The notes under the pieces were generated by a model, which worked only from the letters and a program-made list of their open reading frames with translations, searched no databases and had not been told where the DNA came from. From contig NZ_JACHMP010000001.1 of assembly GCF_014204985.1 (NCBI RefSeq), positions 6,944,001-7,008,000 on the forward strand: 64,000 nucleotides of DNA. Reading direction: 5' to 3'. This document shows positions 5,479 to 61,983 of the stretch, one piece after another. The translations under genes were made by a program, and so were the position numbers. The DNA comes from Streptosporangium becharense. Lineage in GTDB: Bacteria > Actinomycetota > Actinomycetes > Streptosporangiales > Streptosporangiaceae. Position 1 is the stretch's first letter. Each line of letters opens with the position of its first letter.

Positions 5479-6971
5479 CGGTAGACCACCGCCGCGAGGT
5501 CGGGTTCGACGTCGAAGGGGTCGAAGGGGAACATGGGGCGGGTGATCCGCTGATGTCCGAGTCGTTCGAGGTCCTGGTCGACCGGTCCCGGCGTGAGCGC
5601 GAGCGTCCAGCCGGCCGCGACGTCGTAGAGGGTGGGTTCCAGATAGCCGATCTTGGTGACGATGATGTCGGCTTCCAGCGGTTCGAGGCCGATGGCCCGG
5701 AAGTCGGCGACGTCGTGGAACGCCTTGCGGAACTCGGTGATGATCACGTGGAGGCCGCCGCGGCGTACGACGGCGATGCGTCCCGCGGCGGGGTCTCCCT
5801 CGAAGCGTGAGAGGAGGATCCCCTGGACGAGGGCCGGCCCGCTGACCCGGGAGTCGACGCGTGCCCCCGCGGTGACCGAGACCTGCGAGCCCGGTTCGGC
5901 GGAGAAGAGCTCGTCGACGGCGACCGCGTCGAAGACGGAGGCGCAGTACGTCACCGGTGCGTCGTCCGCGGTCAGTTCGGGCATCCGGAGGAGCCGGCTG
6001 AGCGTCCAGGTGACGTCGCCGGTCCCACCGGCGCCGGGGTTGTCGCCGGAGTCGCTGATGAGGTACGGCTTGGCGGTCGCGGCCAGCGCGCGTTCCACGC
6101 CTTGTTCGAGCGTTCCGGGAGGGCCGACGAAGCCGAACGCGTCGCGGACGGCCCACAGCTCGCCGGCCAGCCCGCTCGCGGCGTCCCGCACCGTGGCCGT
6201 GTCCGTGCCGGTGACGACGACGCTCGCGTGGCAGCGCGGCTCGTCGGCCCAGGCGTATCCGATCCAGATCGACGCGTCGGTGACGCCCTCGCTCGCCTCG
6301 ACGGGGAGGATCCGCCGGTAGAGGCTCCTGGCCGGTTCCACCCGCGTGCTCGTCTTCTCGCCCGGCAGCAGGATCGGGATCCGGGACCACGCGCGTACGG
6401 GCCTTTCCCCGGTCCGCAGGTGATGGACGAGGTTGCGCGCGGCACGCTCCCTCGTCTCGAGGGCGTCCTCGTGCGGCGCGAGGCGGTAGCACGTGATCAG
6501 CTCGCAGGCCCGCACGAACCGCTCGGAGAGGTTGCCGTGCAGGTCCATCGAGGCCGAGATGAGCGGACCGGAGCCGACCGCCGCGCGGATCGCTTCCACG
6601 AGGTCGCCTTCGGCGTCGTCCATGTGCTCGACGCTCATCGCGCCGTGGACGTCGAGGAGGATGCCGTCGAGCGGTTCGCGCTCGTGCTCGCGGCGCAGTC
6701 CCTCGACGATGCGCTCGCGGAAGTCGGCGTAGACGTCGGCCTGGACCCGTCCGCCCGGGATGGATCTGGCGTAGAAGACGCCGGTCCATCGCGCCGAGGC
6801 GGCGAGCTCGGAGCCGGGAGCGAGGAACGGGTAGCGGTCGACGGCCTCGCCGCCGCTGAAGGTCGCGAAGTCCCGGTAGCCGGCGCGGTGCGGCGAGTAG
6901 GCGCTGGACTCGATCGCCATCCCGGCCACCGCGATCCGGGGCACCGGCCGTGGCGTGGACGCGGCGGTCAC
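5475..6971 (-). CDS. M81 family metallopeptidase-like protein (MlrC-type)
   Basis: 498 residues, the normal MlrC family length (N-terminal DUF1485 plus C-terminal MlrC domain). It opens with RIAVAGMAIESSAYSP, typical of the family, and carries LDVHGAM and SMDLHGNLSE around residues 125-150, which hold candidate metal-binding residues, and DSGDNPGAGGTGD further on. The founding member opens linear microcystin, but most relatives sit in sugar or peptide ABC operons with unknown substrate. The start is a GTG at 6971 overlapping the upstream permease stop by 4 bp, which fixes it well. In this operon it may hydrolyse a glycoconjugate or amide linked to the imported sugar; that is inference only. 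Confidence 0.85.
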   Translation of the reverse strand: MTAASTPRPVPRIAVAGMAIESSAYSPHRAGYRDFATFSGGEAVDRYPFLAPGSELAASARWTGVFYARSIPGGRVQADVYADFRERIVEGLRREHEREPLDGILLDVHGAMSVEHMDDAEGDLVEAIRAAVGSGPLISASMDLHGNLSERFVRACELITCYRLAPHEDALETRERAARNLVHHLRTGERPVRAWSRIPILLPGEKTSTRVEPARSLYRRILPVEASEGVTDASIWIGYAWADEPRCHASVVVTGTDTATVRDAASGLAGELWAVRDAFGFVGPPGTLEQGVERALAATAKPYLISDSGDNPGAGGTGDVTWTLSRLLRMPELTADDAPVTYCASVFDAVAVDELFSAEPGSQVSVTAGARVDSRVSGPALVQGILLSRFEGDPAAGRIAVVRRGGLHVIITEFRKAFHDVADFRAIGLEPLEADIIVTKIGYLEPTLYDVAAGWTLALTPGPVDQDLERLGHQRITRPMFPFDPFDVEPDLAAVVYR

Positions 6972-7873
6972 CGCCCCCCCAGCCCCGAGGTCGCGATGCC
7001 CCTGACGAGGTGCTTCTGCAGGGCGATCACGAGGATCACCGTCGGGATCATCGAGATGATGGAGGCGGCCATCTGAAGGTCCCATCGGGTTCCGTTCTGG
7101 GTCGAGAAGCTTGCCAGGCCGATCGGCAGGGTGCCACGGACCGCGTAGTCGTTGACCGCGATGAGCGGCCACAGGTAGCTGTTCCAGTAGTTGAGGAAGG
7201 TGAAGACGGCGAGCACGGCGAGCGCCGGACCCGCGAGCGGCAGGATCACCTGCAGGAAGGTGCGCAGGGGGCCCGCCCCGTCGACGCGTGCGGCCTCCTC
7301 CAGTTCGTACGGGATTCCGCGGAAGAACTGCCGCATCAGGAAGGTGCCGAAGGCGGTGAAGGCCCACGGGAAGACGAGCGCCTGGTAGGTGTCGACCCAG
7401 CCGAACCACTGCATGAGGACGAACATCGGGATGACGAGCACCTCCTGCGGCACCATGAGGGTGCCGAGGAAGAGCACGAAGACGATGTCACGCCCCGGCC
7501 AGCGCAACCGGCCGAACGCGTACCCGGCCGTGGCCGAGACCACGAGCACGACGAGCACGCCCGCGATCGAGACGAAGAAGGAGTTCGTGATGTAGGTGGT
7601 GAACGGCGCGTAGGTGAAGACCTCGGTGAAGTTCTCCCACCGGAACTCCGAGCCGAAGAGGCTCGGCGGCGTCTGCATGACCTCGCGTGAGGGCTTGAAG
7701 GCGGAGAAGACGGCGTAGACGAGCGGCGCGGCGAAGACGACCGCCGCGATCAGGACCGTGGCGTACGCGATGACGGCGCCGAAGCGCCGGTTCTCCTCCC
7801 GGCCCGGCCCCCGCCCGCGACGACCGCCGCCGGCCGCGTGGCCGGCGGGCAGGACCACCGGATCAGTGCTCAT
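6968..7873 (-). CDS. Carbohydrate ABC transporter permease, MalG type
   Basis: Inner-membrane subunit of a binding-protein-dependent sugar importer. 301 residues with six predicted membrane spans after a basic cytoplasmic N-terminus. The EAA loop that docks onto the ATPase reads EEAARVDGAGPLRTFLQVIL, matching the MalG family. Start ATG lies 11 bp inside the end of the preceding permease gene, and the stop overlaps the M81 start by 4 bp, so the genes are translationally coupled. No ATPase gene is present in the locus. As is common in actinomycetes, a shared MsiK-type ATPase encoded elsewhere would energise the system (inference from family knowledge). Confidence 0.92.
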   Translation of the reverse strand: MSTDPVVLPAGHAAGGGRRGRGPGREENRRFGAVIAYATVLIAAVVFAAPLVYAVFSAFKPSREVMQTPPSLFGSEFRWENFTEVFTYAPFTTYITNSFFVSIAGVLVVLVVSATAGYAFGRLRWPGRDIVFVLFLGTLMVPQEVLVIPMFVLMQWFGWVDTYQALVFPWAFTAFGTFLMRQFFRGIPYELEEAARVDGAGPLRTFLQVILPLAGPALAVLAVFTFLNYWNSYLWPLIAVNDYAVRGTLPIGLASFSTQNGTRWDLQMAASIISMIPTVILVIALQKHLVRGIATSGLGGR

Positions 7874-8774
7874 AGTGCACCCACCGTTTCTGCGCTCGGA
7901 ACTGCAGGGCTGTCACGCCGATGATGAGGGCGAACAGGATCCAGGCGGCCGCCGCCGCGAGACCGAGGTCCTGGAACTTGAATCCCGTGTTGTAGATGAA
8001 CATCACGATCGGCATCGTCGAGGTGCCCGGCCCGCCCCCCGTCAGGAGTTGCGGCTGCGCGAACACCTGCAGCGACGAGATGATCGTCATGACGGTCGCG
8101 AAGAAGATCGCCGGTGAGATGAGCGGAATCGTGATGTGGACGAGGATGCGCCAGCCGCGCGCGCCGTCGATCCGGGCGGCTTCGACCACGGAGGCCGGGA
8201 GCTGCTCGAGCGCGGCGGTCAGCACGAGCATGTTGTAACCCATGCCCGCCCACACGCTCATGACGACGATCGAGATCATCGCCCAGTTGGCGTCGACGAG
8301 GAAGTTCGGCAGCTCGAATCCGAACATCGTCCGTGACAGGCCGTTGAGCAGGCCGTCCGGCTGGAGGATCAGCTTCCAGACCAGGACGTTGGCGACGATC
8401 GGGGTGACCACCGGGATGAAGAACAGCACGCGGAACACCGCACGGCCGCGGATACGCGGCCCCAGGAGCAGGGCGAGTCCCAGGGCGACGACGAGGTTGA
8501 TCGGCACGTACAGGACGGTGAAGACGACCGAGTTGCGCAGGGCCGGCCAGAAGTCCGGGCTCGAGGTGAGCAGTTCGGCGTAGTTGTCGAACCCGACGAA
8601 CGTCCGCTCGCCGAAGATGGGCCAGTCGAACAGGCTCATGATGATCGCGAGGGCGACCGGGACCACGGTGAACAGGGAGAGCCCGGCGACGGCGGGGGTG
8701 ATGAAGCCGAGCGCCTGCCACCGCTCGGTCCGGATGAGCGCGTCGGTGCGCCGGATGCCGCTCCGCCGCGCCAT
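7863..8774 (-). CDS. Carbohydrate ABC transporter permease, MalF type
   Basis: First membrane subunit of the same sugar importer, 303 residues, six predicted spans. The N-terminus RTERWQALGFITPAVAGLSL is a classic MalF/UgpA start, and the EAA loop is VEAARIDGARGWRILVHITI. The ATG at 8774 shares one base with the stop of the fucosidase gene (TGATG), fixing the start and indicating translational coupling. It pairs with the MalG-type gene immediately downstream. Confidence 0.92.
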   Translation of the reverse strand: MARRSGIRRTDALIRTERWQALGFITPAVAGLSLFTVVPVALAIIMSLFDWPIFGERTFVGFDNYAELLTSSPDFWPALRNSVVFTVLYVPINLVVALGLALLLGPRIRGRAVFRVLFFIPVVTPIVANVLVWKLILQPDGLLNGLSRTMFGFELPNFLVDANWAMISIVVMSVWAGMGYNMLVLTAALEQLPASVVEAARIDGARGWRILVHITIPLISPAIFFATVMTIISSLQVFAQPQLLTGGGPGTSTMPIVMFIYNTGFKFQDLGLAAAAAWILFALIIGVTALQFRAQKRWVHYEH

Positions 8775-10054
8775 CACGGCTCCTCCAGCACGAGTTCGAC
8801 GACGGGAAGCAGGACGTCGGGACGTTGCACGGGCATGAGCAGCGTCGCGGTGCCCGGCGGAGGCCCCGCCGGTGTCATCGTGTTCGCCTGCTGGTCGGCC
8901 GGGATCTGCGTGAAGAGCACCTCGGAGCCGTCGTGCAGGAGCCGCGCGAACCGGATCCGGCCGGCGAGCCCCGGCAGGTGCAGGTGGCCGAACGGCCAGG
9001 TGTGCACGTGGACGTAGAGGCGGTCCGCGCGTTGCGTGTAGACGGCGTGGGGCGGTGGCGTGAACGCGGAGGGGCCCGCGCCGTAGACGGAGACGCAGTG
9101 GTGGCGCATCCAGCCGCCGATGCTCTCGAATATCGCCCGGTCGCGTGGGGCGATCTCGCCGCGGCCGGTCGGGCCGACGTTGAGCAGCAGGTTCCCCCCC
9201 TTGGACACGGTGTCGACGAGCATGCTCACCAGGAGCTCGGGCGACTTGAAGTCCAGGTTGTCGCGGTGGTAGCCCCAGCTTCCGTTGACCGTCTGGCACG
9301 CCTCCCAGAGCACGCGTTCGCCGTCCCGCTCCAGCGGCCGGAGCGGCTGGTACTGTTCCGGCGTCACGAGGTCGGCCGGGATGCCGAGACGGTCGTTGAC
9401 GAGCATGTCCGGCTGCAACTCGCGGCACAGGGCGAGCAGGCGCTCGGCGTCCCAGTCGTCGGCGCTCTTGCCGGGCAGCCCGTTCTCCGCGGCGGGTTCG
9501 GTGAAGTCGAAGAAGAGGTAGTCGATCGTCCCGTACCCGGTGAGCAGTTCGCGTACCTGGGCGTGCAGGTAGTCGCGGTAGCGGCCCCAGTCGCGGCGGG
9601 CGTTGCGTGCGGCGACGTCGGCGGCTCTCCGCTGCGGGTGGTGGCGGTCGATCGTGTAGTCGGGGTGGTGCCAGTCGAGCAGCGAGTGGTAGAAGCCGAC
9701 GCGGAGGCCTTCCGCGCGGGCGGCGTCGACGAACTCGCCGACGAGGTCGCGGCCGATCGTCGCCCACGACGAGTACTCACCCTGTCCGGTCTTCCACAGG
9801 CAGAAACCGTCGTGGTGTTTCGTCGTGAGGACCACGTAGCGCGCACCCGCCTCACGAGCGGTGCGGGTGATCGCTCGGGCATCGAACAGATCCGGGTCGA
9901 AGAAACGGACGTAGCGGGCATAGTCCGCGACGGTGAGTTCCTCGTAGTTCATGACCCATTCGTGTCGGCCTGCGACGCTGTAGGGGCCGAAATGCACGAA
10001 CATGCCGAACCTGTCGTGTTCGAACCAGCCCGTGCGTGAGTGGCGGGGCGTCAT
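8774..10054 (-). CDS. Alpha-L-fucosidase, GH29
   Basis: Retaining glycoside hydrolase that would release L-fucose from fucosylated glycans. 426 residues. GH29 landmarks include FGMFVHFGPYSV near the N-terminus, YVVLTTKHHDGFCLW around residues 72-86, GFYHSLLDWHHPDY, and the expected nucleophile Asp183 in YLFFDFTEP. No signal peptide is seen, so it should act in the cytoplasm on imported oligosaccharides. Strong ribosome-binding site (GGAGAGGG) before the ATG. It lies between the solute-binding protein and the permeases, implying that the ABC system brings in a fucoside. Some GH29 relatives act on other alpha-L-sugars, so fucose is likely but not proven. Confidence 0.9.
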   Translation of the reverse strand: MTPRHSRTGWFEHDRFGMFVHFGPYSVAGRHEWVMNYEELTVADYARYVRFFDPDLFDARAITRTAREAGARYVVLTTKHHDGFCLWKTGQGEYSSWATIGRDLVGEFVDAARAEGLRVGFYHSLLDWHHPDYTIDRHHPQRRAADVAARNARRDWGRYRDYLHAQVRELLTGYGTIDYLFFDFTEPAAENGLPGKSADDWDAERLLALCRELQPDMLVNDRLGIPADLVTPEQYQPLRPLERDGERVLWEACQTVNGSWGYHRDNLDFKSPELLVSMLVDTVSKGGNLLLNVGPTGRGEIAPRDRAIFESIGGWMRHHCVSVYGAGPSAFTPPPHAVYTQRADRLYVHVHTWPFGHLHLPGLAGRIRFARLLHDGSEVLFTQIPADQQANTMTPAGPPPGTATLLMPVQRPDVLLPVVELVLEEP

Positions 10055-10115: not shown

Positions 10116-11390
10116 TCACTGGGCGAAACGCTGCTGCAGGCCGCCGAGCGCGTCGGCCATCGTCTTCTGGCCGGCGTAGACGCTCACGAGCTCCTGCGGG
10201 AAAGCGGTCGTGACCTGCGTCCACTTCTCGGTCACCCGCTGCGCGGACGCGCCGTCGAAGGCGGAGGTGAAGGCCGCGGTGAGCTTCTCCTTCGAATCGG
10301 CGGCAAGCGCCTGGAAGTAGAGCGGCTGGCTGCCGAGCTGCGCCGGGTAGCCGCCCTGCTGCGCGATCACCGCCTGCACCTTCGGCCCGGCGAGGGCCCC
10401 GAGGACCTTGAGCGCGGCCTGCTTGTTCTCGCAGTTGGCCGCGATGCCGTAGCCCGAGCCGAGGGCGACGCCGAAGGGGCCGGCCGCGCCGCTCGGAATG
10501 CGGACCGCGCCGCCGGTGAACGGCATGTCCTTGCCCGTGTACTTGGTGGCGTTCCACGTGCCATCGATGATCATCGCGGCCTTACCGGTCTCGAACTGGC
10601 CGGGGTCCCAGGTCGTCTCGGAGGCCGAAGGCACGGCGTTGGAGACCTTGAGGCCGGTGACGAGACCGGAGTACCACTCGGCGGCCTTGACGAAGGTCGG
10701 GTTGGTCAGGTCGAGCTTGCCGTCCTCGGTCACCACCTGCAGGCCCGCCTTCGCCATGGGCAGGGAGAGCCATTGGAACTCGTCGATGCTCACCGCGAAT
10801 CCCTTGACGCCGGTCTTCTCGGTGATGGTCTTGGCCGCGGCCTCGAAGTCGTCGACCGTCCAGGTGTTCGTGGGTTCCGCGACGCCCGCCTTCTTGAACA
10901 GGTCGGCGTTGTAGTACAGGAACATGGTCGCCGTGTCGTACGGGAGGCCGTAGAGCTTGCCGCCGTGCTCCATGACGCTCAGCGCACCCGGGTTGTAGTC
11001 GCCGCGCGAGATGCCGGCGACCTTGAGGTCCTCGTCGGTGAGCGGCGTCAGCGCGGCGGTGTAGCCCGACAGGCGCTGGCCGTTCATCGAGGTGATGCAG
11101 GCGAGCTTGCCCGAGGCCATGTTGGCGTTGAGCTTGGTGAAGTAGTCCGTCCACGGTGCGGTCTGGAGTTCGATCTTCACATCGGGGACGAGCTGCTGCG
11201 CGACGGCCATCTGGGCTTCGAGCTTCTTCGTCGACTCGTTGTCACCCGACCACATGTTCCACGTGATCGTCGCTCCGGAGCCGCTGCCGGACCCCTCCCC
11301 GGAGCCTTCTCCGGAGCTTGAGCCGCAGGCGCTCGCCGCGGTCATGATGGCGACGGCCGCGGCGGAGAATGCCGCGATTCGAAGTTTCAT
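10116..11390 (-). CDS. Sugar ABC transporter solute-binding lipoprotein
   Basis: Family 1 extracellular solute-binding protein, 424 residues, that would capture a sugar outside the membrane and hand it to the two permeases. Type II signal peptide: MKLRIA, a hydrophobic stretch, then lipobox ASAC with Cys near residue 24, followed by a Ser/Gly-rich linker. I chose the ATG at 11390, which has AAAGG about 6 nt upstream, rather than the TTG two codons earlier. It is the first gene of the operon; the 180-bp upstream region holds two inverted repeats that may be operators for the adjacent ROK regulator. The 61-bp gap to the fucosidase gene contains no other gene. Confidence 0.92.
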   Translation of the reverse strand: MKLRIAAFSAAAVAIMTAASACGSSSGEGSGEGSGSGSGATITWNMWSGDNESTKKLEAQMAVAQQLVPDVKIELQTAPWTDYFTKLNANMASGKLACITSMNGQRLSGYTAALTPLTDEDLKVAGISRGDYNPGALSVMEHGGKLYGLPYDTATMFLYYNADLFKKAGVAEPTNTWTVDDFEAAAKTITEKTGVKGFAVSIDEFQWLSLPMAKAGLQVVTEDGKLDLTNPTFVKAAEWYSGLVTGLKVSNAVPSASETTWDPGQFETGKAAMIIDGTWNATKYTGKDMPFTGGAVRIPSGAAGPFGVALGSGYGIAANCENKQAALKVLGALAGPKVQAVIAQQGGYPAQLGSQPLYFQALAADSKEKLTAAFTSAFDGASAQRVTEKWTQVTTAFPQELVSVYAGQKTMADALGGLQQRFAQ

Positions 11391-51030: not shown

Positions 51031-51654
51031 ATGTCCGAGCCGATGAAGCACCTGGGCCGCTCCGTGCACGGCGCTCGCCACGGGGACGGGCACCACGCGA
51101 CCGCGGAGCACGAAGGCCACGGGAGCCATGGGAGACACGAGGGCCACGGAGGCCACGAGAGCCAGGGAAGTCACGGGAGTCACGGGAGTCACGGGAGTCA
51201 CGGGAGTCACGGCCAGAAGGCCACGTGGCGGGTGGCCGCCTCGGCGACTCTGCACTGCCTGACCGGATGCGCCATCGGCGAGGTGCTCGGCATGGTGATC
51301 GGTACGGCGCTGGGCTGGTCCGGCGGGCCCACCATCGCGCTGGCCGTGGCGCTGGCCTTCTTCTTCGGCTACGCGCTCACCCTGGTCGGGCTGCGCAGGG
51401 CCGGTGTCGACTGGCGCAAGGCCGTCCGGCTGGCGCTCGCGGCCGACACTCTGTCCATCGTCGTCATGGAGATCGTCGACAACGCGGTCATGGTCGCGGT
51501 TCCCGGCGCGATGGACGCCGGCCTGACCTCCGGCCTGTTCTGGGGAGCGCTGGCCTTCGCCCTCCTGGTGGCCTTCCTGGTCACCGTGCCCGTCAATAAG
51601 TGGATCATCGGCCGGGGCAGGGGCCACGCCGTGGTCCACGCCTACCACCATTGA
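51031..51654 (+). CDS. DUF4396 membrane protein with His-rich N-terminal tail
   Basis: 207 residues. N-terminal 1-62 is a histidine/glycine-rich tail (HEGHGSHGRHEGHGGHESQG) ending in SHG repeats, then the DUF4396 core: ATLHCLTGCAIGEVLGM on span 1, and three further spans with a conserved Asp/Asn-containing helix (EIVDNAVMVAVP). His-tail and the HCxxGC motif suggest metal binding or delivery, copper or nickel being likely. GGAGAGGG directly before the ATG. A CsoR/RcnR-like element lies upstream. Confidence 0.83.
   Translation: MSEPMKHLGRSVHGARHGDGHHATAEHEGHGSHGRHEGHGGHESQGSHGSHGSHGSHGSHGQKATWRVAASATLHCLTGCAIGEVLGMVIGTALGWSGGPTIALAVALAFFFGYALTLVGLRRAGVDWRKAVRLALAADTLSIVVMEIVDNAVMVAVPGAMDAGLTSGLFWGALAFALLVAFLVTVPVNKWIIGRGRGHAVVHAYHH
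51169..51213 (+). repeat. Five 9-bp tandem repeats coding for SHG units
   Basis: AGTCACGGG repeated four times exactly and once with a final C, inside the His-rich tail of the DUF4396 gene. Copy number may vary between strains by slippage. Confidence 0.85.
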
Positions 51655-51745: not shown

Positions 51746-53128
51746 TCACCGTGCCCGGTGCGGGGAGCGCTCCACCGGCACGAGGCCCAGCTCTATCTTC
51801 TGCTTGGGACGCAACGCCGCCGGGAGGGGGGTGAACGGCCCGGAGTTGCGCACCCACGGCCGGAACCGGCTCACGAGGGTGGCGATGGTGAGCAGCGCGA
51901 CGAGTTGGAACAGGTGCTGGCCGATGCACTGGTGGGGGCCGCCGCCGAAGGGGAAGTAGGAGTAGCGGTGCCGCCGCGTGTCGATGTCCGGCGAGAAGCG
52001 CTCGGGGTCGAAGTCGAGCGGGCGGTCCCAGAACTCGTCCAGCCGGTGGGTGGCGTAGGGGGAGACGAACACCGTCGAGCCGGCGTTGACGGACACTCCG
52101 CCGATCTCTCCGGACGCGGCGGCGAACCGCTGCATGATCCAGCCCGACGGGTACAGGCGGAGGACCTCTTGCAGGACCATCTTGGTGTAGCGCAGTTCCG
52201 GGATGTGCGACGGGAGGACCGGTCCGGTGCCGACGACGCGGTCGATCTCGTCGTAGAGCCGGGCCGCCACCGGGGGATGGTCCCGGAGCACCGGCCACAT
52301 CCAGGCCAGGGCGTGCGTCGTGGTGTCGGTGCCGGCCACCAGGGCGGCGACCAGGTCGTCACGGACCTTCCGGTCGTCGGCGTGGCTCCCGTCGCGTGCC
52401 CGGCACAACGCGGAGATCACGTCGTGGCCGTCGCCGGAGGCGGTGCGGGCCTTGCGGATCAGCGGATACACCATCTCGTCGACGGCCTTGACGGCGTTCG
52501 CGAAGGCCCGGTCACCCGGCAGCGGGACGGCGGTGGGCACGAACGGCATGATCTGGCGGACGTTCAACCACTTGACGGCTGTGCCGAACTCCCGGGCGAG
52601 CCGTTCTCCCTCCTCGAAAGAGCTCTTCTCCCCGAAGAAGAACATGGTGTTCACCGCGACCACGATGTCGGTCATCGTCTTGGTGGCGTCGATCGGCCGC
52701 CCCGACCGGGCGGACTCGTCCAACCGGTCGACGCGTTCGGCGATCACGTCGGCCAGTCGCCCGGTGAGCGATGTGACATGCCTGGCCGTGAACATGGGCT
52801 GATGAGCCTTCCGGCTGGACTCCCAGTCCGGCCCCTCACCGGCGAAGGTGGTACCGAGGAACCGTTCCACGGGGTCCCACACCTTGCCCACCCGCTGGTA
52901 GTTCGTCCAGTCGGTGCGCATCACGTACTGGACGTGGTCGGGATGAGTGACCAGATAGGGACGGAACGGTCCCAGATCAAGTCGTACCACCTGTCCGCGG
53001 GCCTGCCTGCCGACTTCCGCGAACGCGTTCACCGGGCCCCGCACGAGCATCGGCAGCAGACGACGGAGGGGAACGACGGTGGCCTGTCGTGCCGATCCGG
53101 CGCTGCCGCGGCCGATCTGGACGGACAT
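51746..53128 (-). CDS. Cytochrome P450 A of the terpene cluster
   Basis: Heme monooxygenase, 460 residues. I-helix oxygen motif AGTDTTTHAL, ExxR in QEVLRLYP, heme loop FGGGPHQCIGQHL with Cys401 as thiolate ligand. Close paralog of the P450 at 60628: both open with RLLPMLVRGPVNAFAEVGRQ-like sequence and align almost without gaps. Similarity continues into the DNA before the ATG (AGGAGAtAGCT versus GGGAGAcAGCT) and past the paralog's stop; here that codon is GAG, adding eight residues (ERSPHRAR). Likely oxidises the terpene made by this cluster. ATG 53128 follows AGGAG by 9 nt. Confidence 0.92.
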   Translation of the reverse strand: MSVQIGRGSAGSARQATVVPLRRLLPMLVRGPVNAFAEVGRQARGQVVRLDLGPFRPYLVTHPDHVQYVMRTDWTNYQRVGKVWDPVERFLGTTFAGEGPDWESSRKAHQPMFTARHVTSLTGRLADVIAERVDRLDESARSGRPIDATKTMTDIVVAVNTMFFFGEKSSFEEGERLAREFGTAVKWLNVRQIMPFVPTAVPLPGDRAFANAVKAVDEMVYPLIRKARTASGDGHDVISALCRARDGSHADDRKVRDDLVAALVAGTDTTTHALAWMWPVLRDHPPVAARLYDEIDRVVGTGPVLPSHIPELRYTKMVLQEVLRLYPSGWIMQRFAAASGEIGGVSVNAGSTVFVSPYATHRLDEFWDRPLDFDPERFSPDIDTRRHRYSYFPFGGGPHQCIGQHLFQLVALLTIATLVSRFRPWVRNSGPFTPLPAALRPKQKIELGLVPVERSPHRAR

Positions 53129-53267
53129 CGTAGCTATCTCCTGTTTCGGGCGGTGCTCATGACGTTTGGGTGCTATGAGGGCTCGTGGGAAATCCGGACG
53201 GACATCACGGTGATCTTCTGTCGCGGCCCGGGAGCACGGTGTACCGGCGGACAACCGCAGCGCGCGC

Positions 53268-54395
53268 TCACCGGTCGCGATGCATCGCCCATTCGGCGAT
53301 CGTGGCGAGATCGGCACGCGCTGTCTTCTGCGGTTCGGCACGGTCCAGACATGCCAGAGCCAGCGTGATCTGGCGCCGGCCCTCCGCCTCCACCGCCGCC
53401 CGGCCCCCCGCCGCCTCGATCAGGGCGGTCATCGACGCGCACTCCTCCCGGCCCGGAGGCTCCGGGCGTCGGTACAGCGCGGCGAGACGCCGGCCCGCCT
53501 CGCTCGCGTCGGCCAGTGCCGTGATCACCGGCAGCGTCTTCTTGCGCGCGGCGACGTCCGCCCCCACGGGCTTGCCCGTCCGGTCCGCCCGCCCCCAGAT
53601 GCCCAGGATGTCGTCGGCGCACTGGAACGCCACTCCGAGATGCCGTCCGAAACGGCCCAGTTCTCTCGCCCGTTCCGGGGACGAGCCCCCCAGCAGAGCG
53701 CCGAGCATGCACGCGCCGCCGAGCAGAGCGCCGGTCTTGAGCTCGGCCATCGATCGGTACTCCGCCGCGGTGACGTCGTCTCGGGACTCGAACGCGAGGT
53801 CATCGCTCTGTCCGCGCATGAGATCCGCCATGGTGTCGATCAGTACGTCGGTCAGGGCCGGGTCCCCCGTGCCGGTGAGCACCTGAAGCGAGAGAATCTG
53901 CAGGGCGTCTCCGGCGAGCACGGCCGCCCCGACGCCGAACCGCACCCACGCCGCCGGTCGATGCCTCCGCATCCGGTCCGCGTCCATCACGTCGTCGTGC
54001 AGCAACGAGAAGTTGTGCACGAGCTCCACCGCCACGGCTCCGGGGACCGCGCGCCGCGCGTCCCCGCCCACGGCTCGCGCCGCACCGAGCACCAGCGCTG
54101 AGCGCAGAGCCTTCCCCCCGTTCCCGGACGTCGCCTCATCCGCCGCCGACCCGTCCGCCCATCCGAAGTGGTACTCCGCCACGCGGCGCTCTCGCTCGGG
54201 CAGCTTCACGATGGTCCGGCGCAGCGCCGGCCGCACCAACGCCTCCGCCTCCGCGAGCACCTGCGCGGCCGAAGTCACCGTGCCGGCTCGCGCTCCGGAC
54301 CTGACGGAACTGCGCGGGTCGGCCGATGGGGAGAGGAGGTCTATGATCGAAGTGTCATTCGACAATGCGCCACTAAGCTCGCTCGACATGGGCAT
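53268..54395 (-). CDS. Polyprenyl (probably geranylgeranyl) diphosphate synthase
   Basis: 375-residue trans-isoprenyl diphosphate synthase that condenses IPP with allylic diphosphates. First Asp-rich motif DDVMD at 134-138, second DDILG at 261-265, followed by DRTGKPVGADVAARKKTLPV. Phe at position -5 before the first motif is the pattern of archaeal-type GGPP synthases, so C20 is the best guess, C15 not excluded. Start ATG 54395 (or 54389). The gene is transcribed away from the inverted repeat at 54410-54542 and followed by P450 A after 139 bp. Confidence 0.9.
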   Translation of the reverse strand: MPMSSELSGALSNDTSIIDLLSPSADPRSSVRSGARAGTVTSAAQVLAEAEALVRPALRRTIVKLPERERRVAEYHFGWADGSAADEATSGNGGKALRSALVLGAARAVGGDARRAVPGAVAVELVHNFSLLHDDVMDADRMRRHRPAAWVRFGVGAAVLAGDALQILSLQVLTGTGDPALTDVLIDTMADLMRGQSDDLAFESRDDVTAAEYRSMAELKTGALLGGACMLGALLGGSSPERARELGRFGRHLGVAFQCADDILGIWGRADRTGKPVGADVAARKKTLPVITALADASEAGRRLAALYRRPEPPGREECASMTALIEAAGGRAAVEAEGRRQITLALACLDRAEPQKTARADLATIAEWAMHRDR

Positions 54396-54409
54396 TCGCT
54401 CTCAGGAGT

Positions 54410-54542
54410 GGCTCCGCCCGGGTGCGGAAGCAGGACTCGGACTCGGCCAAGGTGGTCCACCGCCCTTGTGAACGGCTTGAATCGCTTGTCGGTGTTGTCC
54501 CGGCCTTGTGAACACGTGATCACTTGGGAGGATGTGCCCGGG
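54410..54542 (-). repeat. Left copy of the 133-bp inverted repeat, upstream of the prenyl synthase
   Basis: The reverse complement of this segment matches 59311-59443 with about 15 differences by hand alignment (including two 1-bp indels). It ends 15 bp before the prenyl synthase start codon and contains the palindrome GTGATCAC at 54516-54523 within AACACGTGATCACTT. Its position relative to the start codon and that of the right copy make a shared promoter/operator the simplest reading. Confidence 0.85.
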
Positions 54543-54940
54543 CAGGGATCCGCCCGTGCCGACGTCACATCCGCCGTACCCGCCGGATTCCGGCGGCGGA
54601 CGGTTGAGCCGGTCCACGCGGGCCGGACGCCGCAGGAACCGGCCGAGGAGTCCGCGCCGGCCGCGATGAAGGTCGCCACGATGAGGGTCCGACCATCGCC
54701 GAGCAGGAGGATCGGGCCCGGGTGCCGGGTGTGCCGCCAGGGCCGCCGGGGGGCCACCGGAGATTTCTCGCCCTCCCGGGAGGCACGCGATGGTCGTCGA
54801 CAGGCGTGGCAAGCCGTTCACAAGGAGGGGCGGCGATCGTCGGCGGAAGACTGCACCGACCGGCTGTGCGGTATGAGCGGGAGCTTCGTCACCCGTACAC
54901 GCTGACCGCCGAGAGCGGCCGAAAGGAAGAGCGCGCGATC
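54543..54940. other. Gene-free part of the divergent region before dxs
   Basis: About 400 bp between the left inverted repeat and the dxs start with no supported gene. A weak open frame runs through it in the dxs frame but lacks a ribosome-binding site and homology. A short inverted repeat CCGCCG...CGGCGG surrounds 54581-54600. Confidence 0.4.
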
Positions 54941-56836
54941 GTGTTGGCTGATATCCGTTCGCCCCGAGACCTGAAGGCTCTGACACCGGGGCAACTCGCC
55001 GGGATCGGTGCGGAGATTCGCGCGTTCCTGGTGGATGCGGTGTCTCGCACCGGCGGCCATCTCGGCTCGAACCTCGGGGTGGTCGAGTTGACGCTGGCGC
55101 TGCACCGCGTCTTCGACTCCCCCGGGGATCGCATCCTGTGGGACACCGGTCACCAGGCCTACGTGCACAAGCTGCTCACCGGCCGGCAGGACTTCTCCCG
55201 GCTACGGCAGCAAGGCGGGCTGTCCGGCTACCCGTGCCGGGCCGAGTCCGCGCACGACGTCATCGAGAACTCCCACGCCTCCACGGCCCTGTCGTACGCC
55301 GACGGCATCGCGCGGGCACTGCGCGTTCAGGGCATGACCGGCAGAGCCGTGGTCGCGGTCATCGGGGACGGCGCGTTGACCGGTGGGATGGCCTGGGAGG
55401 CGCTGAACAACATCGCCGCGAGCCCCGACCTTCCCGTGATCATCGTGGTCAACGACAACGGCCGCTCCTACGCCCCGACCGTCGGGGCGCTCGCCGGGCA
55501 CCTGGGCACGCTACGAGCTGCCGACCGCGACGGGCGTCCTGCGCGGCCGGCGTTCTTCGACGCCCTGGGTCTGCCCTACATCGGCCCGATCGACGGCCAC
55601 GACATCGGTGCGACCGAATCGGCGCTGCGGGCGGCTCGCGAGGCGGGTGGGCCGATGGTCGTGCACTGTGTGACGCAGAAGGGGCGGGGGTACCGGCATG
55701 CGGAAGATGACGTCCGTGACCATTTCCACGGCATCGGGGTCATCGACCCGCTCACTGGCCGGTCGGCCGGAGCCGGACTCCCACCCAGCTGGACGTCGGT
55801 GTTCGGTGCGGAGATGGTACGGGTCGGTGCGACACGCCCCGATGTGGTGGCGCTGACCGCGGCGATGCTCGCCCCAACTGGATTGGGCCCCTTCGCCCAG
55901 GCGTATCCGGATCGGGTGATCGACGTGGGCATCGCCGAGCAGCACGCGGCGACCTGCGCGGCCGGTCTGGCGGCGGGGGGCCTGCATCCGGTGGTGGCCG
56001 TCTATGCCACCTTCCTCAACCGGGCCTTCGACCAGGTGTTGACGGACGCGGCGCTGCACCGCGCCGGGGTGACGTTCGTGTTGGACAGGGCCGGGGTCAC
56101 CGGTGATGACGGGCCCAGTCACAACGGGATGTGGGACATGTCGGTGCTACAGGTCGTACCCGGCCTGCGCCTGGCCGCGCCTCGCGACGCCGCCCAGCTG
56201 GGGGCACAGCTGAATGAGGCACTGGATGTGGATGACGCGCCGACGGTGGTGCGCTTCCCCAAGGGGGCGGTCGGGCCGGACATCCCGGCGGTGGAGCGCG
56301 TCGGCACCCTGGACGTGCTCGCCCGCACCACGGCGGCCGCGGACCACCACGAGGTGGTGCTGGTCAGCGTGGGGGCGATGGCCTCCACCTGCCTGCAGGT
56401 CGCCGACCGGCTCGCCGCCCACGGCACAGGGGTCACGGTCGTCGACCCGCGCTGGGTCAAGCCGATCGACCCGGCACTGCTGGACATGGCCAGACAGTGC
56501 GACCTCGTCGTCACGGTCGAGGACAACACGCGCATCGGTGGTGTGGGCGCCGCCATCACCCAGATGATGCAGGACTCCGGCCTCGCGGTGCCCTGCCGCG
56601 CCTTCGGGATCCCCGCCGAGTTCCTGCCCGTGGCCGGACGCGGTCAACTGCTGGAGGAACTCGGTCTGACCCCCGCCGCGCTGGAGCAGGACATCCTGCG
56701 CCGGCTGTCCGACCACCCGCCGACGCGTCGGCCGCGGCGAACACCCCGGCCCCCTCATGAAGTAGGGACCTTCCGGAGCGGAGAGCATGACGACCCGACG
56801 AGCGAAGAAGGGCAAGGTAATGGAACCTCCCACTAA
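54941..56836 (+). CDS. dxs: 1-deoxy-D-xylulose-5-phosphate synthase
   Basis: First MEP-pathway enzyme: thiamine-dependent condensation of pyruvate and glyceraldehyde 3-phosphate. 631 residues from the GTG at 54941, normal for Dxs. TPP-binding [16 protein letters not shown] near 141-156, catalytic Glu in [17 protein letters not shown] near 333, and the transketolase C-domain. A duplicated dxs is expected here (a housekeeping copy should exist elsewhere); location in the cluster suggests dedicated precursor supply. Its last 50 bp overlap the start of ispH, so the C-terminal tail ([13 protein letters not shown]) is unusual and probably dispensable. Confidence 0.92.
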
Positions 56837-57770
56837 ACGGGTCCTGGTCGCCAGACCGCACGGATACTGCGCCGGTGTCGACCGGGCGGTCCGGACCGTG
56901 GAGAAGGCCCTGGAGACCTACGGGCCGCCGATCTACGTACGCAAGCAGATCGTGCACAACCGGCACGTGGTCGAGACCCTCGAAGCGCGCGGCGCGGTGT
57001 TCGTCGAGGAGAACGACGAGGTGCCCGAAGGCGCCGTCGTGGTGTTCTCCGCACACGGCGTCGCACCCGAGGTGCACGCCTCGGCCGCGGCTCGCGCGCT
57101 GAAGACCATCGACGCCACCTGCCCCCTGGTGACCAAGGTGCACAACGAGGCGCGCCGCTTCGCCGCCGCCGACTACGACATCCTTCTCATCGGTCACCAG
57201 GGACACGAGGAGGTGATCGGCACCACTGGCCAGGCACCCGAGCGCATCCACGTGATCGACGGTCCGCAGGACGTCTCGGATGTGACGGTGCGCGACCCGG
57301 CGAAGGTGGCCTGGCTGTCGCAGACCACCTTGTCGGTGGACGAGACGACGCAGACGGTGGAGCTGCTTCGGCAACGGTTCCCGCTGCTGACGTCACCGCC
57401 GAGCGACGACATCTGCTACGCCACTCAGAACAGGCAGCAGGCGGTCAAGCAGATCGCGCCATCCTGCGATGTGGTCATCGTCGTCGGGTCACGCAACTCC
57501 TCCAACTCGGTGCGTCTTGTCGAGGTCGCACTCGACGCCGGCGCCCGCGCCGCCCATCTCATCGACTTCGCCCACGAGATCGACGACGCGTGGCTGGCCG
57601 ACGCCGGCACGGTCGGGCTGACCGCAGGGGCCTCGGTGCCCGAGGTACTGGTCGAGGACACGCTGGCCTGGCTGGTCGAGCGGGGATTCACCGATGTCAC
57701 GGCGGTGGCGGGTGCGCGGGAAACGACGGTCTTCGCCCTGCCGCAAGAGGCTCGGGTGAGCCGGGGTTGA
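56787..57770 (+). CDS. ispH: 4-hydroxy-3-methylbut-2-enyl diphosphate reductase
   Basis: Last MEP-pathway step, giving IPP and DMAPP with a [4Fe-4S] cluster. 327 residues from ATG 56787, 316 from ATG 56820. The three cluster cysteines are at 28 (HGYCAGV), 112 (DATCPLV) and 210 (DICYATQ); the catalytic Glu region and HGVAPEVH are present. Overlaps the end of dxs by 50 bp, so the two form one unit. With dxs it supplies C5 units to the cluster. Confidence 0.93.
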
Positions 57771-57830
57771 CGCCGATCCGGTTTTTCCATGATCTGAGCT
57801 GCCTGAACCAGCGGATAGAGAGGTTCGCCA

Positions 57831-59210
57831 GTGAAACCGGCTGAAGCACGGATGCGATCGAAGAGCCTGATACCGCCGAAGGTTCCGAGCTACCCGTTGG
57901 TCGGCTCGTCGCCGGCCCTGCTACGGGGCAAGTTCGGCTTTCTGCGGGAGACCCGGGAGAAGTACGGTGACGTCTTCGAGCTGGATCTCGGTTTCGCTGT
58001 GTTCACCGTCGTGTGCCACCCCCGGCACGCGCAACACCTCCTGGTGGACAACACGCGCAACTACGTCAAGAGCGGTCCCTTGTGGGATGGCATCCGGACA
58101 CTGCTGGGCGACGGGCTGCCGTTCGTCGAGGGCGACGTCTGGAAGAGGAACCGCCTGCTCATGCAGCCGGCCTTCCACCGCCAGCGGCTGATCGGGCTGG
58201 TGGACGGCATGGTGGACGCCATTGACGAGGTCTTCGACGACTGGGCCGGATGGGCCCAGGCGGGCGAGCCCTTCGACATCGGGGCGGCCTGCAACCGGTT
58301 GACCATGCACGTGCTCGTGCGTGCCCTGTTCGGTACGGGGATGCAGCCGGGCGAGCCGGAGCGGATCGGCGAGGCGTTCGACTACGCCATCCGCTACATG
58401 ATGATCGGCTCATTGTCGACGAGGTGGCCACAATGGCTGCCCATGCCTGGCCGGGCCCGCTACCACCGCGCTATCCGGAAGATCGACGAGATCGTCCGCC
58501 ACATCGTCGATCGGGGACGGCAGGGCCTGGATCAGGACGGGGCTCACCTGCTCGCCCTGCTGCTCAACACGGTGGATGCGGACACGGGCGAGCGGATGAC
58601 GGACCGGCAACTCCGGGATGAGACCGTGACGCTCTTCGCGGCCGGCTACGAGACCACCGCGGTGACGCTGTCCTTCGCGTTCCACCTGATGGCCCAGTAC
58701 CCGGAGGCGGCCCAGCGGATGCGGGACGAGGTGGACACGGTGCTCGGCCGGCGCAGGCCCGGCTTCGGCGACCTGGCCGCACTGCCCTACACCCGTAACG
58801 TGCTGCTCGAGGCGGTCCGCCTGTACTCGCCCGCCTACTACCTGACTCGTACGGCTGTAGGGGAGGACGAGATCGACGGGTTCCGGATTCCGGCGGGACG
58901 GCAGGTGCTGATCGCCACGTATCTGATCCACCATCACCCGGAGGTCTGGCCGGATCCGCTGCGTTTCGACCCGGATCGTTTCACGCCGCAGCGCTCGGAG
59001 GGGCGGCACAAGCAGGCGCTGATGGCCTTCGGTGCCGGACAGCGGCAATGCATCGGAAAAGAGTTCGCCCTGACGGAGGCGCATCTCGTTCTGGCCCGAG
59101 CGGTCCAGCGCTACATCCTGGCGCCCGTACCGGGACGCGAGAATCAGGTCGGCATGGCGGCCAGTGCCCGCGCCAAGGACGGGGTGTGGGTGCGTATGAG
59201 GCATCGCTAG
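57831..59210 (+). CDS. Cytochrome P450 B of the terpene cluster
   Basis: 459 residues. I-helix motif AGYETTAVTL, ExxR in LEAVRLYSP, heme loop FGAGQRQCIGKEF with Cys407. It differs clearly from the two paralogous P450s of the cluster and resembles CYP110/CYP3A-like bacterial P450s with an acidic-Thr pair ET. Probably a second oxidation of the terpene. GTG start, GAGAGG 8 nt upstream; 60 bp after ispH, so likely in the same transcript. Confidence 0.92.
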   Translation: MKPAEARMRSKSLIPPKVPSYPLVGSSPALLRGKFGFLRETREKYGDVFELDLGFAVFTVVCHPRHAQHLLVDNTRNYVKSGPLWDGIRTLLGDGLPFVEGDVWKRNRLLMQPAFHRQRLIGLVDGMVDAIDEVFDDWAGWAQAGEPFDIGAACNRLTMHVLVRALFGTGMQPGEPERIGEAFDYAIRYMMIGSLSTRWPQWLPMPGRARYHRAIRKIDEIVRHIVDRGRQGLDQDGAHLLALLLNTVDADTGERMTDRQLRDETVTLFAAGYETTAVTLSFAFHLMAQYPEAAQRMRDEVDTVLGRRRPGFGDLAALPYTRNVLLEAVRLYSPAYYLTRTAVGEDEIDGFRIPAGRQVLIATYLIHHHPEVWPDPLRFDPDRFTPQRSEGRHKQALMAFGAGQRQCIGKEFALTEAHLVLARAVQRYILAPVPGRENQVGMAASARAKDGVWVRMRHR

Positions 59211-59310
59211 TGTCCTGCGCCGGATATCCGCTGCTCGGGTTCCTCGTGACCGTCTTCGTGACAAGTCCTGGCGCCGCGGTCGAAGGCCGTGCCGGCCGGC
59301 GTGGGCTCCC

Positions 59311-59443
59311 CCCGGGCACGTCCTCCCGAGTGATCACGTGTCCGCAAGGCCGGGGGCAACACCGACAAGCGATTCAAGCCGTCCACAAGGGCGGTGGGCC
59401 ACCTTGGCCGAGTTCGGGCCCTGCCTCTGAACCCGGGGGAGCC
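59311..59443 (+). repeat. Right copy of the 133-bp inverted repeat, upstream of the terpene synthase
   Basis: Reverse-complement partner of 54410-54542. The best-kept blocks are CCGACAAGCGATTCAAGCCG (59361-59380), GTGATCACGTG (59330-59340) and CCACCTTGGCCGAG (59399-59412). It lies 60 bp upstream of the terpene synthase start codon. The intervening genes dxs, ispH and P450 B are bracketed by the two copies. Confidence 0.85.
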
Positions 59444-59503
59444 GTAGGGCTCTTCGCCGGGGCTTGACGATCTCGCTCACACTACTAGTCCCGTGGAGCT
59501 TTC

Positions 59504-60610
59504 ATGGCCATCACGACCCCGCTGCGCATCGATCTGCCCCCCGCCTACTGCCCGATTCCCGCGGAGATCAATGACAACTTCGAAGAGTGCAAGCGCCGCG
59601 GCCTGAGCTGGATGGGCGAACACGGATTCTGCCCCGATGACGCGGCCCGGCTCCGGGTCGCGGACACCGACTCGGCGGAGTGGTGTGCCCAGGCGATGCC
59701 CCACGCCGGCCCCGAGCGCCTGCAGGTCGCCACGGACTGGACCTACCTGATGTTCGTCTTCGACGACCTGTTCTGCGACACGGGCGAGAGCAGCACGAAC
59801 ACCAACGCCTTCGTCGAGGCCGCCGCCCGCATCATGCACCTGTTCGAGGCCCCCGACGGTGCGACCATGGACGCCGCCAACCCCTTCACCGCCCCCATCC
59901 GCGACCTCGCCCTGCGCGTCCGGCGCTGCGCGACCCCGGCCCAGGTCCGGCGCTGGATAGAGGCGCACCGGACGTGGCTGCTCGGCGTGGCGTGGCAGAT
60001 CGCCGCCCAGTCGTCGGGAACCCGGCTGAGTCTCAACGACTACACGGTCATGCGCCTGGGCACCTGCGGCGGCCTCCCCTGCGCCGCGATGGTGGAAGAG
60101 GAGGAGGTGCCCGCCAGTGAGCTGAACGGCCCTAAGGTGCGCGCACTCACCGAGGCCGCGTGCCTGACCGCCGGTTGGGACAACGACCTGGCCTCCTACG
60201 GCAAGGAACTCTGGTACGCCCAGCAGACCTCCGATGCCCGGCAAGGCATCGCCACCAACCTCGTCGACGTGCTCATAGACCTTCACGGCTACACCCGCGA
60301 CCAGGCTCTGCAGGAAGCCACCCGGATGCGGGACCACACGACGCACCTGTTCGTCCGGCTGCGCGAGCAGGTGCTGCCCACGGCCAGTGCCCCGCTGCGC
60401 CACTACGTCAACGCCCTGGGCACCAGCATGCGCGCCACGGTCGACGTCGGAGTCACCACCGCGCGTTACACCAACCCCGACGGTGCCCACCCCGGCGCGG
60501 TCCACATCACCTCAAGCCTGACCGACAGGCCGCCGGTCGGGGCTGCGGATCCGCTTCCCATCCCCGCGATCGCCTGGTGGTGGGACCTGCTCGATCGCGG
60601 CACGGTCTGA
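59504..60610 (+). CDS. Class I terpene synthase (cyclase)
   Basis: Metal-dependent cyclisation of a prenyl diphosphate, 368 residues. Asp-rich motif FDDLFCD with Asp87/88/92, NSE triad WDNDLASYGKE with Asn227, Ser231, Glu235 and Lys234, and the C-terminal RY pair in TTARYTNPD. Bacterial family 2 terpene synthase. Because the cluster has its own GGPP-type synthase and MEP genes, a diterpene product is likely; a sesquiterpene cannot be excluded. GGAG 5 nt before the ATG. P450 C follows after 17 bp. Confidence 0.92.
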   Translation: MAITTPLRIDLPPAYCPIPAEINDNFEECKRRGLSWMGEHGFCPDDAARLRVADTDSAEWCAQAMPHAGPERLQVATDWTYLMFVFDDLFCDTGESSTNTNAFVEAAARIMHLFEAPDGATMDAANPFTAPIRDLALRVRRCATPAQVRRWIEAHRTWLLGVAWQIAAQSSGTRLSLNDYTVMRLGTCGGLPCAAMVEEEEVPASELNGPKVRALTEAACLTAGWDNDLASYGKELWYAQQTSDARQGIATNLVDVLIDLHGYTRDQALQEATRMRDHTTHLFVRLREQVLPTASAPLRHYVNALGTSMRATVDVGVTTARYTNPDGAHPGAVHITSSLTDRPPVGAADPLPIPAIAWWWDLLDRGTV

Positions 60611-60627
60611 GACGGGAGACAGCTGCG

Positions 60628-61983
60628 ATGCCCGTAGAGAGCAGCCGTGGCGGCGCTTCCCGGCAGGCCGGCGTCATTCCCCTGTACCGTTTGCTGCCGA
60701 TGTTCGCACGGGGCCCGGTCAACGCGTTCGCGGAGGTCGGCAGGCGGGCACGGGGGGAAGTCGTACGGCTCGATCTGGGGCCGTTCCGCCCCTATCTGGT
60801 CACCCATCCCGAGCACGTCCAGCATGTGATGCGTGACAACTGGACGAACTACCCCCGGGTCGGCAAGGTCTACGGCACCATGCAACGGCTCAGCGGTACC
60901 ACCCTCGCCACCGAGGGGCCGGACTGGGAGTCGGCTCGGAAGGCTCTTCAACCCATGTTCACGGCCAGGCGCGTCACGTCGCTCAACGACGAACTGGCCG
61001 ACGTGATCACGGAACGTGTCGACCGGCTGGATGGGGCAGCCCGGTCGGGGCAGCCGATCGACGCCGCCAAGACGATGGCCGACATCGTGATCGCGATGAC
61101 CACCAGGCTTTTCTTCGGCGAGAAGAGCTCCCTTGAGAACGGAGAACGGCTGACCCGGGCGTTCGACAGAGCCGTCAAGCTGGGGGGTCTCCGCACGATC
61201 ATGCCTCTCGTGCCCGACTCCGTCCCGCTGCCGGGCGATCGGGCCTTCGCGAACGCCGTCAAGACCGTCGACGAGGTGGTGTATCCGCTGATCCGCAAGG
61301 CCCGCGCCGCCTCCGACGACGGCCACGACGTGATCTCCGCGTTGTGCCGGGCACGCGACGGGAGCGAGGTCGGTGACCGGCAGGTCCGTGACGACCTCGT
61401 CACCGCCTTCATGGCCGCGACCGACACGACGACGCAGACCCTGACCTGGTTATGGCCGGTGCTCCACACCCACCTGCGGGTGGCGGCCCGGCTCTACGAC
61501 GAGATCGACCGCGTCGTCGGCACCGGACCGGTCCTCTCGTCGCACATCCCGGAACTGCGCTACACCAAGATGGTCCTGCAAGAGGTCCTCCGCCTGTACC
61601 CGTCGGGGTGGATCCTTCCGAGGACCGCCGTCGTGTCCGAAGACATCGGCGGAGTGCCGATCGACGCCGGCTCGACGGTGTTGATCTGTTCTTACGCCAC
61701 CCACCGGCTGGAGGAGTTCTGGGACCGCCCGCTCGACTTCGACCCCGAGCGCTTCTTGCCGGAGATCGACACGCGCCGGCACCGCTACGCCTACTTCCCC
61801 TTCGGCGGCGGCCCCCACCAGTGCATCGGCCAGCACCTGTTCTACATCGAGGCACTGCTCACCGTCGCCACCATCCTGAGCCGGTTCCGGCCGCGGATGC
61901 GCAACTCCGGGCCGTTCACCCCCTTTCCCGGCGTGGTGTTGCGTCCCAAGCAGAAGATAGAGCTGGACCTCGTACCGGTGTAA
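60628..61983 (+). CDS. Cytochrome P450 C of the terpene cluster (paralog of P450 A)
   Basis: 451 residues; heme loop FGGGPHQCIGQHL with Cys399, ExxR in QEVLRLYP. The I-helix reads MAATDTTTQTL: the usual Gly before x-D/E-T-T is Ala, whereas P450 A keeps AGTDTT. Very similar to P450 A over the full length, so the two arose by duplication. ATG 60628 preceded by GGGAG, 17 bp after the terpene synthase stop. Stop TAA at 61981; beyond it the sequence CGCTCCCCGCAC is still shared with the P450 A reading frame. Confidence 0.92.
   Translation: MPVESSRGGASRQAGVIPLYRLLPMFARGPVNAFAEVGRRARGEVVRLDLGPFRPYLVTHPEHVQHVMRDNWTNYPRVGKVYGTMQRLSGTTLATEGPDWESARKALQPMFTARRVTSLNDELADVITERVDRLDGAARSGQPIDAAKTMADIVIAMTTRLFFGEKSSLENGERLTRAFDRAVKLGGLRTIMPLVPDSVPLPGDRAFANAVKTVDEVVYPLIRKARAASDDGHDVISALCRARDGSEVGDRQVRDDLVTAFMAATDTTTQTLTWLWPVLHTHLRVAARLYDEIDRVVGTGPVLSSHIPELRYTKMVLQEVLRLYPSGWILPRTAVVSEDIGGVPIDAGSTVLICSYATHRLEEFWDRPLDFDPERFLPEIDTRRHRYAYFPFGGGPHQCIGQHLFYIEALLTVATILSRFRPRMRNSGPFTPFPGVVLRPKQKIELDLVPV

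Follow-up and report, generated by a model that had tools for sequence, protein, structure and literature searches.

A likely three-unit diterpenoid cluster in Streptosporangium becharense with the same 16-bp box ahead of each unit

What does a seven-gene terpenoid cluster that carries its own precursor genes produce, and how might its parts be switched on together? The question is raised by positions 51746–61983 of a 64,000-nucleotide stretch of the Streptosporangium becharense genome (contig NZ_JACHMP010000001.1; the whole stretch is called the window here). Open reading frame (ORF) positions together with Pfam and NCBIfam models bore out the gene order and families that an initial annotation, made from the bare sequence, had given for all seven genes:

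51746–53128, minus strand: cytochrome P450 A (P450A), 460 aa; PF00067, 6e-59; likely start ATG 53128
53268–54395, minus strand: geranylgeranyl diphosphate (GGPP)-synthase-like polyprenyl synthase (GGPPS); PF00348, 2e-59
54941–56836, plus strand: dxs, 1-deoxy-D-xylulose-5-phosphate synthase, extra copy; TIGR00204, 563 bits, above cut-off
56787–57770 (alternative start 56820), plus strand: ispH, 4-hydroxy-3-methylbut-2-enyl diphosphate (HMBPP) reductase, extra copy; NF002189, 546 bits, above cut-off
57831–59210, plus strand: cytochrome P450 B (P450B); PF00067, 2e-85
59504–60610, plus strand: class I terpene synthase (TS), a cattleyene synthase relative with an altered pocket; PF19086, 1.5e-32
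60628–61983, plus strand: cytochrome P450 C (P450C), 451 aa; PF00067, 9e-68 (profile search run from 60616)

We consider it likely that these genes form a diterpenoid cluster of three units. Each lies behind one and the same 16-bp box, which would couple the switching of precursor supply to that of cyclisation and oxidation. The units would be GGPPS-P450A, dxs-ispH-P450B, and TS-P450C, co-induced through the shared box. Dxs and IspH would increase flux at the entry and the exit of the methylerythritol phosphate (MEP) pathway, the IdsB-like synthase would yield GGPP, TS would cyclise GGPP into a hydrocarbon that is not cattleyene, and as many as three P450s would oxidise this hydrocarbon, making the predicted product an oxidised diterpenoid. 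The box, carried by what would be a duplicated promoter, may be the target of a SARP-type activator whose gene lies outside the cluster.

A diterpenoid-type cluster with its own precursor genes, as initially proposed, is supported by the gene families, by the extra dxs and ispH, and by the kinship of TS to GGPP cyclases. All seven genes are open frames spanning most of their family models, with catalytic residues checked for TS only. The ORF listed for P450A extends to 53341, inside the GGPPS gene, and ATG 53128 is the likelier start; the dxs start, GTG 54941, was set by comparison with a sister locus of the same genome (L151). Both dxs and ispH occur three times in the genome, the other copies lying at 6154267–6156135 and 1067971–1069884 (dxs) and at 4700702 and 1069985 (ispH). 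GGPPS scored 299.2 bits on the NCBIfam model of the IdsB GGPP synthase, which is below the cut-off. With GGPPS, ispH, and dxs beside a terpene synthase, the window shows the combination that marks isotuberculosinol-type clusters. The precedent for this precursor cassette is the isotuberculosinol operon Rv3377c–Rv3383c, where idsB, lytB1, and dxs2 accompany two diterpene synthases and dxs2 is reported as an inactive pseudogene (PMC3470408). Common to both are an IdsB-like GGPP synthase and extra ispH and dxs genes beside diterpene synthases (PMC3470408); however, the operon has the Rv3377c/Rv3378c synthase pair, and the window a single class I GGPP-type cyclase with three P450s.

The proposed co-switching rests on the intergenic regions. 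The inverted repeats that were claimed initially for these regions are real, as is an inverted match between P450A and P450C. The intergenic pairs 54417–54501/59353–59437 (85 nt, 89%) and 54499–54542/59311–59354 (44 nt, 91%) align as a single stretch of 143 columns at 87%, lying upstream of GGPPS-P450A and of TS-P450C—a promoter-like position that agrees with the earlier idea of each repeat copy driving a prenyl-chemistry gene and the P450 behind it. The core of the repeat is a 16-bp box, CAAGCCGTTCACAAGG, and all three apparent transcription units have one copy upstream. The copy in front of dxs, which the initial annotation did not mention, belongs to a further inverted pair (54464–54491/54798–54825). 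The following elements were located:

54464–54479, minus strand: core box, exact
54810–54825, plus strand: core box upstream of dxs, exact
59375–59390, plus strand: core box, one mismatch
54417–54542, minus strand: putative promoter repeat, copy 1, reading toward GGPPS (from the inverted repeat pairs)
59311–59437, plus strand: putative promoter repeat, copy 2, reading toward TS (from the inverted repeat pairs)
54439–54471, minus strand: bipartite element, 0 mismatches (used in deriving the pattern)
59383–59415, plus strand: bipartite element, 0 mismatches (used in deriving the pattern)

At up to one mismatch, the core occurs at four sites in the genome, three of them in the window; the fourth (one mismatch) lies at 7.20 Mb in locus L211. 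The longer bipartite pattern, YCACAAG-N10-SA-N3-TGGYYGRGTYY, was written by eye. Its basis was a set of seven sites lying ahead of GGPPS, TS, or class I genes: two in the window and one each in L211 and L151 of the same genome and in L009, L010, and L153 of a congener (G003). The L009 site has one mismatch to this pattern and the L153 site does not fit it. Allowing up to two mismatches, S. becharense contains six sites, compared with 0+0 for the reversed pattern; four of the six had served in the derivation, and two are new, one on the dxs side of L151 (two mismatches) and one at 6621977 in locus L229 (one mismatch). The three element-bearing loci besides the window—L151, L211, and L229—each have a SARP homologue, within about 3 kb for the two found by the motif alone (L211 and L229). 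SARP also adjoins TS in L010, the second TS locus of the congener.

Several observations weigh against this scheme. At up to three mismatches the core has 94 sites versus 62 for a reversed control, so most of these are chance matches. The box before dxs comes without a good second half of the bipartite element. In G003, the element has three sites against three control matches, and the other 14 genus genomes are at chance level (0–2 sites versus 0–4 in the control). No SARP homologue was found by tblastn in the window or in L009, nor any BTAD match in the window; control of the cluster would therefore act in trans. Besides the SARP of L211, the genome encodes eight full-length SARP homologues at 59–81% identity (18 matches in all), of which one is that of L151 and the other seven have no element site nearby. 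The element is common to three loci with SARP homologues, yet one of these homologues (L229) lacks a BTAD domain. For the window cluster, SARP control should be taken as a lead and not as a result.

The strongest competing explanation is that rearrangement left the intergenic repeat behind, or that it serves as a structural or recombination element, in either case with no regulatory role. Recent copying alone would conserve it, two copies at 87% prove no function, and most SARP homologues in the genome have no nearby site. We nevertheless judge this unlikely: the core has a further copy ahead of dxs that is not part of the repeat pair, and L211 and L229, loci not otherwise similar to the window locus, carry the bipartite form near SARP homologues. 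The reversed pattern has no match in the genome. The intergenic repeat is better read as a putative duplicated promoter that carries the box.

L211 (C1:7195000–7214000; features 2364–8930) is a third diterpenoid-type locus of the genome. It encodes a SARP together with class I and class II proteins, and its 19 kb gave no match to GGPPS, dxs, or ispH. At L229 (C1:6613000–6632000), the element copy is followed by a 62-codon frame (about 9062–9247) with four GLSLNHNE repeats, and further genes encode a TPR protein, an MFS protein, and the BTAD-less SARP homologue; this looks like a peptide-precursor locus. A tentative extension, which we hold to be possible but somewhat less probable than its negation, would be that the unlinked terpenoid loci and the repeat-peptide locus make up one regulon marked by the bipartite element, to which a few related SARP activators would respond (for the window in trans). 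The loci would then swap promoter modules as well as GGPPS, dxs, and ispH, and the window cyclase, its pocket rebuilt, would make a new C20 or C25 skeleton.

The predicted chemistry of the cluster centres on TS. Its best matches in the PDB are 7Y87, 7Y50, and 7Y88, the entries of cattleyene synthase (CyS) from Streptomyces cattleya (PMC9543850). An AlphaFold model (pLDDT 93.5) superimposes on 7Y88 with Z 47.8 and a root-mean-square deviation of 1.7 over 350 residues at 42% identity; identity is 38–39% to SvS ancestral designs and 31% to selinadiene synthase. The model also reaches Z 47.5 with selinadiene synthase, a tie with CyS, and fold alone cannot settle chain length. TS keeps the metal and diphosphate residues DDLFCD, NDLASYGKE, R184, and R321–Y322. 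The class I terpene synthase features looked for were all present, namely the fold, the DDxxxD motif, the NSE triad, the Arg that senses diphosphate, and the RY pair; TS shares these, along with W81, F86, and W160, with CyS (PMC9543850).

For residue comparisons, the pSCAT-borne homologue of S. cattleya (L008) stood in for CyS, since 20 of 20 residues taken from PMC9543850 match it with a shift of two; L013 and L061, which contain stop codons, were left out of the alignments. Three of the 12 residues lining GGPP in CyS are the same in TS and nine are changed, the differences from CyS being C59S, F62W, C82T, A190C, A191G, A229G, L311S, N315T, and W318V. Among them are the near-invariant F62, N315, and W318 (CyS numbering; conserved in 26, 27, and 26 of 27 relatives), which correspond to W60, T312, and V315 in TS; because these pocket positions differ, we do not class TS as a cattleyene synthase. 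Both TS homologues of G003 have W and T at the same positions, and I instead of V, arguing that the changes are no sequencing slip. The F62A and W318A variants of CyS lost much or all product (PMC9543850), and TS is accordingly expected to make something else than cattleyene. The volumes of the 12 residues sum to 1652 in TS, the smallest of 28 (27 others: mean 1744, standard deviation 55, range 1675–1866). Given that pocket residue volume drops from mono- to sesterterpene synthases (PMC8450962), a C20 or C25 substrate is favoured over C15. From its relatives and this pocket volume we infer GGPP as the substrate; with the altered pocket, TS likely takes a C20, possibly a C25, chain and gives another product.

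The C25 option would make the cluster sesterterpenoid, with the prenyl synthase making geranylfarnesyl diphosphate (GFPP) and the enlarged pocket accepting it. Besides the smallest pocket sum, this is favoured by the Trp six residues before RY, which is Val in TS and also missing (Phe) from the bacterial sesterterpene synthase SmTS1 (PMC8450962), and by a Kitasatospora sesterterpene synthase that is 33–34% identical to TS (Z 41.5–43.7). However, the nearest characterised enzymes are GGPP cyclases, the prenyl synthase scores 121.5 bits on the GFPP synthase model NF040789 against the 299.2 on IdsB, and the altered metal motifs of SmTS1 (PMC8450962) were not found in TS. A C25 product thus appears improbable, and GGPP the better candidate substrate.

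How the cluster came about can be approached through its relatives. At E 1e-60, TS was found in 2 of 16 genus genomes, its own included; the other is G003, with two copies separated by about 150 kb (L009 and L010). L009 comprises a P450 (plus), a haem-containing dehydratase (PF13816), a truncated P450B in two frames, a P450 (minus), GGPPS (minus), and TS (plus). L010 has TS (minus) in two pieces, GGPPS (plus) with a stop codon, a P450 (plus), a class II cyclase homologue (plus), another P450 (plus), and the SARP gene by TS. No dxs or ispH match was present in either locus (17 kb each). In both copies, GGPPS and TS diverge around one intergenic region, with dxs and ispH absent, and the symmetric layout put forward initially is therefore not a conserved unit.

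Two further loci link the precursor genes. Among the 16 genus genomes, the closest match by identity to the window dxs (E 1e-80) is the copy at 1.07 Mb of its own genome, in L151, and the closest to the window ispH (E 1e-60) are L151 and one G003 copy, at 83% each. L151 (C1:1055000–1074500), a second diterpenoid locus of the genome, holds GGPPS (minus), then dxs, ispH, and ispG (plus); it also encodes a class I synthase, a SARP, and a class II cyclase homologue. L153 of G003 retains ispH and GGPPS, both class I and class II genes, and one P450. Its dxs is replaced, before ispH, by a 46-codon frame resembling a dxs start (about 10250–10480), with two CCTTGTGAAC boxes between this remnant and ispH; a deletion has apparently removed dxs from this diterpenoid locus. 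The ispH tree joined the window, L151, and L153 at 100/99. In the GGPPS tree (first 36 of 46 rows; the window copy appears as the identical locus L175), the window, L009, L010, L151, and L153 formed one clade at 100/99, with the window beside L009 and L010 at 99/98; the L010 GGPPS, with its stop codon, was left out of a family scan. Because of these trees and the locus layouts, the window cluster looks like a chimera, its precursor module resembling L151 and its cyclase and P450s the TS loci of G003.

The state of the congener loci feeds another alternative, namely that the cluster is silent or decaying and has no present product. The G003 versions do hold broken genes—the split TS, the GGPPS with a stop, the broken P450B, and the dxs remnant. 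With all seven window frames open and most of each family model covered, we regard this as quite improbable for S. becharense. Least credible, with hardly any weight, is a sesquiterpenoid cluster in which TS uses farnesyl diphosphate and the prenyl synthase serves something else: the tied Z scores and the top NCBIfam model of TS, selinadiene synthase (far under cut-off, 212.4 versus 450), speak for it, but TS is closer to CyS (42%) than to selinadiene synthase (31%), no enzyme among the 28 has smaller pocket residues, and TS and GGPPS flank one intergenic region in both G003 copies.

The mirror symmetry of the cluster calls for its own explanation. P450A and P450C are 75% identical as proteins, and their inverted arms (51822–53109/60641–61928) extend over 1288 nt at 85% DNA identity, next to a second inverted pair, 51753–51818/61935–62000 (66 nt, 89%); the remaining ones among the 25 of 26 pairs listed span 19–56 nt at 70–91%. 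In the P450 tree, P450A groups with three G003 P450s at 100/99 and P450C falls outside. The two are thus not each other's closest relatives, which speaks against one recent palindrome, and since P450A joins the G003 proteins to the exclusion of P450C, the paralogues are probably older than the divergence from G003, unless conversion blurred them. Gene conversion between P450A and P450C may have acted in some 100-column blocks of their alignment, which reach 93–96% identity and contain unbroken matches as long as 70 nt, but the congener copy is almost as close in those blocks. Recent palindromic duplication of a whole half-cluster was rejected on the P450 tree, and is also contradicted by the repeat alignments, which have no GGPPS sequence beside TS. 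The two window promoters are 87% identical to each other, compared with 81% (74 columns) and 82% (34 columns) to the L010 promoter, so the promoter was probably copied later, within the window lineage. With P450 paralogues probably older than the promoter copy, the mirror layout seems to have arisen stepwise, and duplication of a regulatory promoter accounts for the paired repeats better than a symmetry of the cluster itself does.

Beyond the genus, a family-level search at E 1e-50 matched TS in 34 of 341 genomes, and identity exceeded 43% in G003 only. A scan of genome contigs, which may omit records of the genome itself, gave 67 TS loci with no close relative (full-length matches reached about 42% and a single partial one 45%), and a plasmid search returned CyS at 41.5% and weaker homologues. 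After removal of two loci with no TS match at 1e-12, GGPPS homologues lay in the flank of 49/65 loci from named genomes, dxs in 2/65 (L074, Planobispora longispora; L106, Actinophytocola gossypii), ispH in 4/65 (L056, L063, L068, L076), and both in 0/65, counting flanks of up to 10 kb, with some contigs shorter. MEP genes thus adjoin this TS type in several lineages, and the full set was not found elsewhere in the 65 sampled loci. The 25 kb around CyS, an unannotated stretch, matches only P450B (30%) and TS among the seven window proteins at E 1e-15. As in the initial annotation, which could match no described cluster, none with this gene set was found in the open PMC literature, MIBiG being outside the scope.

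Pimarane-type class I/II clusters (Stt4548, Sat1646) are matched by the class I protein of L211, and L151 adds GGPPS, dxs, ispH, and ispG to this type. The window has no class I/II protein of the pimarane type, judged by queries from L151, L211, L153, and L010 at E 1e-3. By the same queries it also lacks a class II cyclase, in which it departs from isotuberculosinol-type clusters. A strict DxDD motif is missing from all four class II homologues (EADT in L211, DADT in L153 and L151, DADS in L010).

Assignment of the window GGPPS as a family 2B encapsulin cargo was rejected: it scores 388.7 bits on NF041169, the family-2-encapsulin-cargo polyprenyl transferase model (cut-off 450), and has no adjacent shell gene. 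The sole shell gene above cut-off (6015194–6016543) is about 980 kb from the window and adjoins a paralogous GGPPS. There, at C1:6015194–6019537 within L154, the family 2B encapsulin shell gene is followed by the GGPPS paralogue (50–51% to the window GGPPS) and then by a 979-aa terpene synthase frame that gives two matches. Defence-system models had no match for TS or GGPPS. Elsewhere in the window, a run of 9-nt repeats at 51109–51207, within a DUF4396 gene, encodes a His/Gly/Ser-rich stretch.

For S. becharense, the cluster combines a cyclase whose unusual pocket makes its product unpredictable from its relatives with a GGPP supply of its own, a packaging convenient for heterologous expression. 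Comparison with one congener suggests that such clusters are assembled from exchangeable modules, and the shared element would offer a direct handle to find and activate unlinked diterpenoid loci in the same genome.

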